A stretch of DNA of 64,000 nt from positions 2,170,001 through 2,234,000 of the forward strand of contig NZ_JANHDH010000001.1 of assembly GCF_026616195.1 (NCBI RefSeq), read 5' to 3'. A model generated the notes under the pieces. It saw only the letters and a program-made list of their open reading frames with translations, ran no database searches and had not been told where the DNA came from. Shown here in pieces: positions 15,586 through 17,639 of this stretch (position 1 is its first letter; each line of letters opens with the position of its first letter). This DNA comes from Haloarchaeobius amylolyticus. Its GTDB lineage: Archaea; Halobacteriota; Halobacteria; Halobacteriales; Natrialbaceae. The position numbers and the translations under genes are program-made.

Positions 15586-16194
15586 TCACTCCCACGGGTG
15601 GGTCCCCGAACTGCTCGGGTACATCGGGTACCAGTACTCCTTGTCCGCCTCGAGGTCGAGTTCGCCGTCCAGGTTGCTCTCGAGTTTGAACTCCGTGCCG
15701 CTGTCGCGGTCCTTCTCGCCGCGCTTCGGGACGAAGGGGTAGTACGCGCCCCGGCGGAAGGAGTACACCCAGTAGGCGAGGCGGTCGTCCTTCTCGAAGG
15801 CGAAGAAGGCGTTGAGCAGGCGCGAGCCGTAGTCGCGCTCGATGAACGTGTCCGCGGCGAAGTGCAGGCTCGTGATGAGGTCCTCAGGGTCGTCGTCGTG
15901 GAGCACGACCCAGTGGTAGCCGTGGTCGTCCTCGCGCACCTCGAAGGCGGTGCCCGTCTCGGACTCGCCGGCGGTGAGGATGTCCTCGACCTCGCGGACG
16001 GTGTCCTCGAAGTCGGTGCTGTCGACGCTGGAGAAACAGAGCGCGCCGTCGCCCGTGCTGGCGAAACCGAGTTCGGCCTCCATGGTGATGTAGGCCGTAC
16101 TCATCCCGAAGAGGTCGTCGGGGTCGGCGTCGCGGGCAGCGTCGGCCTCGGCCCGGAGGCCGAGCACTTCGCGTATCGAATCCAGCAGGCCCAT
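15586..16194 (-). CDS. pspAB: PspA-associated protein PspAB
   Basis: 202 residues from MGLLDSIREVLGLRAEAD. The conserved stretches DPDDLFGMSTAYITMEAELGFAS, CFSSVDSTDF, YHWVVLHDDDPEDLITSLHFAADT and YWVYSFRRGAYYPF match the haloarchaeal PspAB family, which co-occurs with PspA/IM30-type membrane-stress proteins. The mechanism is unknown. It is the third gene of htpX-membrane protein-pspAB, but it has its own TATA box inside an inverted-repeat element (16222-16301), so separate regulation is likely. Confidence 0.82.
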   Translation of the reverse strand: MGLLDSIREVLGLRAEADAARDADPDDLFGMSTAYITMEAELGFASTGDGALCFSSVDSTDFEDTVREVEDILTAGESETGTAFEVREDDHGYHWVVLHDDDPEDLITSLHFAADTFIERDYGSRLLNAFFAFEKDDRLAYWVYSFRRGAYYPFVPKRGEKDRDSGTEFKLESNLDGELDLEADKEYWYPMYPSSSGTHPWE

Positions 16195-16218
16195 GGGAGG
16201 AACGTGGGACGGGGGTGT

Positions 16219-16224
16219 CTTATA
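16219..16224 (-). promoter_or_regulatory. Predicted TATA box of pspAB, at the left inverted repeat
   Basis: The minus strand reads TATAAG 25-30 bases upstream of the pspAB ATG (16194), predicting a leaderless transcript. It overlaps the outer edge of the left 16-bp arm, so a protein bound to the repeat could block TBP. Confidence 0.55.
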
Positions 16225-16301
16225 CTGTCGGACGTAAGCCGACGAAGGAATTCGACACCCCCCGGTGTCGAATATCTTCACAAAGTTACGTCCGACAGTA
16301 T
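16222..16301. repeat. 80-bp element with perfect 16-bp inverted repeats and nested palindrome
   Basis: ATACTGTCGGACGTAA (16222-16237) is repeated inverted as TTACGTCCGACAGTAT (16286-16301). Inside, ATTCGACACC and GGTGTCGAAT form a second hairpin with a short C-rich loop. A third copy of the 11-base core CTGTCGGACGT lies at 16316-16326, inside the end of the upstream gene. The layout fits either an operator pair or a tiny MITE-like insertion. Confidence 0.75.
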
Positions 16302-16738
16302 CAATCGCGGCCCTTCTGTCGGACGTCCCAGAGCGTCCGCACGCTGATGACGGCCAGCAGCACGCCGACGAGCGACACCAGCGGTGAGACGACGGTGTCG
16401 ACCCGGTCGAACAGCCCCTCGCGCGGGACGACCCGCACCCGGTAGAGGTCGCCCTCCCACCGGAGGTAGTCGTGGACTGCCAGCGGTTCGATGGCGTCTG
16501 CTTCGCTCCCGATCCAGAGGGTCGCCTCGCCGCCGGTGCCCGCCTGCTCGACGGCTGCCTGCGCCCGCGGCGGCAGGTCGGTGAAGTTCACCACCTCGTC
16601 GGCGGGCGGGGTCTGTTCGGTCGGGTCGACCTCCACGAGGACCTTCGACTCGCCGGGGTGGACGTCGAGGTAGACCGGGTGGGCGGCGGCGAGCAGGCCG
16701 AGGACGAGCGCGAGGAGGGCGACGTCGCGGCGGTTCAT
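16301..16738 (-). CDS. Membrane-anchored protein between htpX and pspAB
   Basis: 145 residues from MNRRDVALLALVLGLLAAAHP. There is one N-terminal helix (~7-23) and one near the C-terminus (VVSPLVSLVGVLLAVISVRTL), with ~85 residues between them, presumably outside the membrane. The outer part contains VVNFTDLPPRAQAAVEQA, which resembles a small domain seen in other haloarchaeal membrane proteins. The short basic tail (WDVRQKGRD) is cytoplasmic. It follows htpX after 25 bases, so it is likely co-transcribed and may be a substrate or partner. A GTG start four codons upstream is possible. Confidence 0.72.
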   Translation of the reverse strand: MNRRDVALLALVLGLLAAAHPVYLDVHPGESKVLVEVDPTEQTPPADEVVNFTDLPPRAQAAVEQAGTGGEATLWIGSEADAIEPLAVHDYLRWEGDLYRVRVVPREGLFDRVDTVVSPLVSLVGVLLAVISVRTLWDVRQKGRD

Positions 16739-16763
16739 GCTCCACACCAACCAGGCGCGCCCA

Positions 16764-17639
16764 TCAGAAGCTTTCCATCTCGCGTTCGAGTTGCTGGAGT
16801 CGTTCGATGCGGCGCTCGGTCGAGGGATGGGTGCTGAACAGGCGCGTGATGGCGCTGCCCGAGATGGGGATGATGAAGAACGCGTTCATCTCCGCCTGCT
16901 CGCGGATGTCCTCCTTGGGCACCCGGTGCATGTCCCCAGAGATGGTCTGCAGGGCGGACGCCAGCGCCCGGGGTTTGCCCGTGATGACGGCGGCTCCGCG
17001 GTCGGCGGCGAACTCGCGGTAGCGCGAGAGCGCCCGGATGAGCAGGTACGAGACGATCCACACCACCAGCGAGACGAGGATGGCGACGATGACGCCCCCG
17101 TTGTTGCGGTTGCGCCCGCCCCCGAAGAACGCGCCCCACCGGACGATGAGGAACGCGATGGTCGAGAGGAACGACGCGATGGTCATGACCATCACGTCGC
17201 GGTTCTTCACGTGGGCGAGCTCGTGCGCGATGACGCCCTCTAACTCCTCGTCGTCGAGGATGCGCAGCAGCTCGGTCGTCACCGCGACGGCGGCGTGTTT
17301 CTGCGAGCGCCCGGTCGCGAACGCGTTGGGGTTGCGCGAGTCCACGACGGCGATCTTCGGCTTGGGCACGTCGGCCTGCTGGGAGAGGCGCTGGACCATC
17401 GCGTGGAGCTTCGGCTCCTCCTCTTCGCTGACCTCTCTCGCGCCCATGCTCCACAGCGTGAGCTTGTCGCTGAAGTACCACTGCCCGAGGCTGAACATGC
17501 CGAACATGAGGGCGATGGCGAGGAGCGACCCGCCCGAGTACAGCCAGAGCGCGGCGATGAACACGATGTAGAGCCCCGCGAGGAGGAACATCGTGAGGAA
17601 CATCCGGAACTGGAGTCCCCTGTCCGCTTTCCATTGCAT
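16764..17639 (-). CDS. htpX: Membrane zinc metalloprotease HtpX (M48B)
   Basis: 291 residues, full length. Two N-terminal helices (12-50) are followed by the zinc motif HELAH in EGVIAHELAHVKNRDV (~residues 136-151), then two further helices and the third ligand Glu in RYREFAADRGAA. The FATGRSQKHAAVAVT region is typical of HtpX. HtpX degrades misfolded or damaged membrane proteins. Being first in an operon-like run with a small membrane protein and pspAB suggests a membrane-stress module. Confidence 0.95.
   Translation of the reverse strand: MQWKADRGLQFRMFLTMFLLAGLYIVFIAALWLYSGGSLLAIALMFGMFSLGQWYFSDKLTLWSMGAREVSEEEEPKLHAMVQRLSQQADVPKPKIAVVDSRNPNAFATGRSQKHAAVAVTTELLRILDDEELEGVIAHELAHVKNRDVMVMTIASFLSTIAFLIVRWGAFFGGGRNRNNGGVIVAILVSLVVWIVSYLLIRALSRYREFAADRGAAVITGKPRALASALQTISGDMHRVPKEDIREQAEMNAFFIIPISGSAITRLFSTHPSTERRIERLQQLEREMESF

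Follow-up and report, generated by a model that had tools for sequence, protein, structure and literature searches.

A 78-bp MITE in the stop codon preceding pspAB in Haloarchaeobius amylolyticus and its probable mobilisation by IS630-family transposases that duplicate TNA

Results

A nested inverted repeat separates pspAB from its upstream gene

The stretch of DNA analysed here (the window) comprises 64,000 nucleotides of the Haloarchaeobius amylolyticus genome. On its minus strand, htpX, which encodes a zinc metalloprotease (16764..17639), is followed by a gene of about 149 codons and then by pspAB (15586..16194; PF22742, E = 2.8e-72). The middle gene, hereafter the upstream gene, spans 16301..16750 (149 codons) from its listed TTG, and a codon-usage caller starts it at 16738. 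It had no Pfam or NCBIfam match, and by eye its product is conserved in G002, a sister species whose PspAB is 98% identical.

The space between the upstream gene and pspAB is occupied by a nested inverted repeat, which the original prediction had described as an 80-bp element that is either a cooperative operator of a membrane-stress gene or a miniature insertion that donated the pspAB promoter. Its perfect 16-bp arms (16222..16237, plus strand, and 16286..16301, minus strand) and inner hairpin (16250..16273; a 10-bp stem formed by 16250-16259 and 16264-16273 around a 4-nt loop) are indeed present. The first base of the left arm and the last base of the right arm belong to a 3-bp target repeat, and the element proper is a 78-bp core, TACTG...CAGTA (16223..16300), with boundaries taken from 129 related copies among the matches listed and from an empty site in G002. 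Without the target-repeat base the arms are 15 bp long and still perfect, and the element is short and non-coding. The inner hairpin is a feature of the whole family, with some pairs changed on both sides, and the minus-strand RNA of 16195-16303 has a folding energy of -51.3 kcal/mol (z = -5.97 relative to 200 shuffled sequences). No known structured RNA matched with E below 0.027, and the match at E = 0.027 falls short of its gathering score and is not within the element. A search for bacterial-type promoters and terminators, whose models are not apt for archaea, found none.

A third half-copy of the arm, which the original prediction had noted 15 bases outside, does exist as an 11-bp stretch (16316..16326, plus strand), but it lies inside the coding DNA of the upstream gene. 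It is absent from the same locus in G002, where the codons differ, and around 98 other copies half-ends show no enrichment within 60 bp (2 seen versus 1.35 expected). We therefore rejected it as a component of the system; it is probably a coincidence.

Related copies are dispersed in haloarchaea

The 80-bp sequence matched elsewhere in the same genome far above chance (E = 2.4e-15), at three further, diverged places of 77-83% identity (four places in all). A covariance model built from 16 copies, four of them from this genome, raised the number to seven, two of which are weak (E = 1.6e-4 and 1.7e-3); the row of the NAD kinase copy in the model alignment is one base too long, and the window copy, itself a member of the model, scored 95.8 bits. 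The 80 bp were searched for in 41 genomes and matched in four: that of H. amylolyticus, G017 (one match), G018 (Natrialbaceae archaeon AArc-T1-2; 17 matches, some of them a single place on both strands) and G020 (Natribaculum breve; 22 of 102 candidates scored). A one-end pattern gave 100 matches in each direction in N. breve, which implies about 100 copies, and 46 N. breve copies are identical and must therefore be recent. A pattern requiring both ends returned at least 120 stretches, and the matches listed include N. breve, Halostella pelagica, Halomarina halobia and several haloarchaeal MAGs. Plasmid records with matches belong to Natribaculum (3) and Halobellus limi, and phage records gave no match.

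The 80-bp DNA search found no match in five other species of the genus (G001-G005), and none of the five has the element before pspAB. The covariance model found a single match in G002, elsewhere in the genome (L374, C1:1471745-1471822). This copy is diverged, ends in CACTGTCGGCTGTC...GACAGCCGACAGTG, lacks TNA flanks and lies off any stop codon.

Other short elements were also seen. Some N. breve copies (at L034 and L130) are nested inside other short elements bearing similar ends. In G018, a second type of MITE measures ~170 bp, has ends TACTGTCGGACAGAAG... and is flanked by TNA, mostly TGA; five copies (L244, L248, L250, L252 and L254, from about position 1500) were read, as was a sixth, L246, without its right end. 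N. breve has a third set of ~80-115 bp with ends TACTGCCGGACAAMA... and TNA flanks, often TGA (L241, L243, L245, L247, L249, L251 and others to L270, at about position 1500). As seen by eye, the outer ends of the G018 and N. breve types are the same as those of the 78-bp element.

The element duplicates a 3-bp TNA target

The matches listed yielded 129 distinct copies, 66 of them from N. breve, and 103 are exactly 78 bp long. In 113 of the 129, the 3-bp flanks are identical and always TNA (TCA 54, TGA 39, TAA 12, TTA 8), within a loose GAC-TNA-GTC context, and it is these flanks that define the element as TACTG...CAGTA and the duplication as 3 bp. A TA duplication was considered and discarded, since those 113 copies have the same middle base in their two flanks and the empty site has one TAA. 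That site, in G002, reads GGCCGCGAT-TAA-GACACCCCCGTCC, whereas the window reads GGCCGCGAT-TGA-[78 bp]-TAA-GACACCCCCGTCC. In G002 the upstream gene ends on this single TAA stop. In the window, the repeat on the pspAB side is TAA on the minus strand (16220..16222), and the repeat on the other side is TGA on the minus strand (16301..16303), the upstream gene's stop codon. The two repeats now differ through a later change on either line, and TGA is still a stop.

Within the H. amylolyticus genome, three of the seven copies have identical repeats, and the window copy (TAA versus TGA) is among the four that do not. The site of the copy at NAD kinase, at a TGA stop, is empty in G002, G001 and G003. 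The genes on either side of the copy at bacteriorhodopsin have their matches apart from each other in G002 and are without a match in G001 and G003.

Insertions lie on stop codons more often than expected

The landing of the window copy in the preceding gene's stop codon, a point missing from the original prediction, recurs across the genome. One end lies exactly on a stop codon in six of the seven copies, the exception being C1:757360. The stops are those of the window's upstream gene and of the genes for NAD kinase, bacteriorhodopsin, a NUDIX protein, UvrB and a PadR-type regulator. If 7.8% is taken as the background, six or more hits in seven have a probability of 1.5e-6; with 17.4%, the proportion of this window's non-coding TNA sites that are stops, the probability is 1.7e-4.

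The same bias is seen in other genomes, where genes were called with a codon-usage script of our own that misses some genes. Insertion sites were counted for 98 of the 129 copies, leaving aside those with unequal repeats or less than 600 bp from the end of the locus. Stops account for 27 of these insertions versus 5.9 expected over all TNA sites weighted by target motif (the copies' own target preference), and coding DNA for 8 versus 47.7 expected. For the 90 non-coding insertions, the 27 on stops exceed both the motif-weighted expectation of 10.5 (p = 2.6e-6) and the unweighted one of 5.1. Stops were hit in 13 of 58 classed copies in N. breve and in 19 of 54 in other genomes (112 of the 129 copies; 17 lie too close to the end of the locus).

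An IS630 transposon has similar ends and TNA flanks

The N. breve stretches that we read contain 1070-bp elements that start with TACTCACGGACATAAGTACGTAAAG and whose other end, read inward, is TACTGTCAGCCAAAAATATTTC. They encode a transposase in two overlapping frames with helix-turn-helix domains and DDE_3, assigned to the IS630 family by NF033545 (104.2 and 149.3 bits for the two frames; cut-off 100) and PF13358. In one copy (L278:1871-2940; G020 C2:141871-142940) the frames overlap at a run of A, as in programmed frameshifting; for relatives on plasmids of Haloarcula, Halorubrum, Natrinema and Halovenus, the annotation gives a single open frame.

Both ends were found for 37 IS630 copies from 12 genomes or plasmid-bearing strains; L389 and L390, which have no full-length left end, and L336, without a right end, are outside this count. 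Both flanks are TNA in 36 of the 37, rather than the 2-bp TA duplication described for the family, and they are identical in 26, where ~34% identity would be expected if the middle bases were independent. The excess holds in N. breve (13/17, p = 1.5e-4) and elsewhere (13/20, p = 0.0045). The flanks are unequal in 11 copies, including three of four in G017, which may reflect recombination between copies, point changes or branches that do not follow a 3-bp rule; the 3-bp rule is thus less secure in the transposon than in the MITE.

The MITE and the transposon have a common end type, TACT..CGGAC. The left end in the window matches the transposon's left end at 13 of 16 bases (background 2e-5), and the right end in the window matches that same end at 19 of 26 bases, a score reached in none of 200,000 samples. 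The transposon's right end is less MITE-like (10-12 of 16 bases; 11/16 for both window ends), and the interiors of the two elements do not match. The MITE thus has ends in common with an autonomous transposon making the same duplication, with the similarity weaker at the transposon's right end than at its left.

A transposase at least 84% identical to that of N. breve is carried by G007, G016, G017, G018, G020 and G040, which amounts to three of the four MITE-bearing genomes versus three of the 37 others (p = 0.007, with a cut chosen post hoc). None of eight IS630 copies examined lies on a stop codon. A search of the H. amylolyticus genome with the DDE half of the transposase found no match at E up to 0.001, and its MITE copies are for that reason probably stranded relics. 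Two other transposase families were considered as helpers and rejected: 30 PF01609 loci, read from 72 matches, lacked such ends, and PF13359 was absent from the three genomes searched.

The insertion changes a TATA-like stretch before pspAB

The arms had been said to overlap the pspAB TATA box, and this holds: TATAAG (16219..16224, minus strand), at -25 to -30 from the start codon, is a possible TATA box that straddles the end of the element and the target repeat, combining the final TA of the element with the repeated TAA and one G. In G002, TTAAG is found at the corresponding position of the empty site, CCTAAGG occurs nearby in more distant congeners, and the distance from the upstream stop to the pspAB start is 25 nt in G002 versus 106 nt in the window. 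The claim that an insertion donated the promoter thus survives at most in part. The insertion may have altered the pspAB promoter (TTAAG to TATAAG), but because TTAAG was already there, it would have modified an existing TATA-like stretch and brought no whole promoter; a weak promoter may have been present beforehand and then been strengthened.

Discussion

Our results support a model in which the inverted repeat before pspAB is a MITE of a haloarchaeal family that was, with high probability, moved in trans by transposases of the IS630 family, from a group whose target duplications are 3-bp TNA. Dispersed copies, target duplications and empty sites mark it as a miniature insertion, and the ends and flanks that it has in common with the 1070-bp transposon make that transposon its likely helper. 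An IS630-type transposase would have recognised TACT..CGGAC-type ends and cut the target at TNA with a 3-nt stagger, and the hairpin would have been pasted in. The sequence itself shows that the element sits in the upstream gene's stop codon, between TGA and TAA, and that the end of the upstream protein is kept. Several points count against the model: three genomes without the MITE carry the transposase, four of the seven copies in the H. amylolyticus genome, including the window copy, have unequal repeats, 11 of the 37 IS630 copies have unequal flanks, the transposon's right end is less similar and its interior unrelated, and none of the eight IS630 copies examined lies on a stop.

A MITE of this kind could later have been put to use at pspAB, either by strengthening its promoter or by insulating the gene behind a hairpin. 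Haloarchaeal leaderless promoters have their TATA box at -25 to -30, where TATAAG lies, and the spacing from the upstream stop has grown. However, TTAAG at the empty site and CCTAAGG in distant congeners speak against such a role, and a start codon 21-35 bp from the element's end is uncommon, being found in just 5 of 102 other copies having a start. We consider such use unlikely, although 81 bp of added spacing, a strong hairpin in read-through mRNA and a changed TATA-like box are possible side effects on pspAB.

Less probable still is a helper from outside the IS630 family, with the likeness to IS630 ends arising by chance. IS5-type elements, for example, are known to make TNA duplications. 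PMC2170065 describes studied IS630 members as duplicating TA, which would favour such a helper. Against it stand the end sequence common to the MITE and the IS630 transposon, the TNA flanks of the IS630 copies themselves, which are identical above chance both in N. breve and elsewhere, and the outcome of the PF01609 and PF13359 searches.

The operator reading, in which a regulator binds the paired arms and thereby controls pspAB, had in its favour the perfect arms and, next to them, a TATA-like stretch suitably spaced from the start of pspAB. It now seems very unlikely, given that the element is missing before pspAB in all five congeners, that copies lie at the ends of genes as unrelated as those for NAD kinase, bacteriorhodopsin, a NUDIX protein, UvrB and a PadR-type regulator, and that the third half-site is coding DNA missing from G002. 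A REP-like palindrome spread by conversion or recombination would fit a small, palindromic, mostly non-genic sequence, but is least credible of all in view of the exact 3-bp duplications, two empty sites and 46 identical N. breve copies, which are traces of transposition.

Mobilisation of the MITE may account for the stop-codon bias. TAA and TGA are both TNA, and landings on them would be harmless and hence kept; selection against broken genes together with a self-repairing repeat may explain the bias, although steering of the MITE to stop codons is possible. More speculatively, and in our view with the odds clearly against it, a branch of IS630/Tc1-mariner shifted from TA to TNA and thereby gained self-repairing stop-codon sites, its MITEs perhaps being steered to gene ends. 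Possible steering routes may include the GAC-TNA-GTC target taste or the end of translation or transcription itself. If this were true, the 3' ends of many genes would have received one common strong hairpin.

These findings have several implications. A false lead on the control of the archaeal Psp response is removed. The data also point to an IS630 group off the TA rule, which would explain in a simple way how its small derivatives can accumulate in gene-dense genomes and leave proteins intact. With a likely helper named, the mechanism is directly testable.

Finally, the element can be set beside known systems, although a literature search that left ISfinder and most subscription journals outside its scope found no recognised description of the element, its ends or TNA duplication by archaeal or bacterial IS630 members. 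Correia elements of Neisseria and RUP of pneumococcus have inverted-repeat ends in common with an IS630-type element and duplicate TA. They are also short, non-coding and mostly intergenic and may alter the promoters of their neighbours, whereas the present element is archaeal, 78 bp long, almost wholly palindromic and duplicates TNA. For Correia elements, promoter effects are described in PMC10969869. The presumed haloarchaeal helper has the same transposase family (NF033545, Pfam DDE_3) as IS630 and the Tc1-mariner relative ISY100. According to PMC2170065, the target of ISY100 and IS630 is TA, which is duplicated on insertion, whereas the haloarchaeal group has TNA on both flanks. This group appears to duplicate TNA, unlike the TA rule, and in doing so restores TAA and TGA stops. 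A TAA duplication is described for eukaryotic Fot transposons of the pogo branch in PMC7386202. Haloquadratum MITEs and SMRs are likewise haloarchaeal and transposase-free with terminal inverted repeats and, according to PMC3119063, include an SMR of 80 bp (HqIRS41). The same paper describes SMRs as targeting other mobile elements and making no target duplication. It is by this description, rather than by sequence, that we set the present MITE, with its 3-bp duplication, apart from them.
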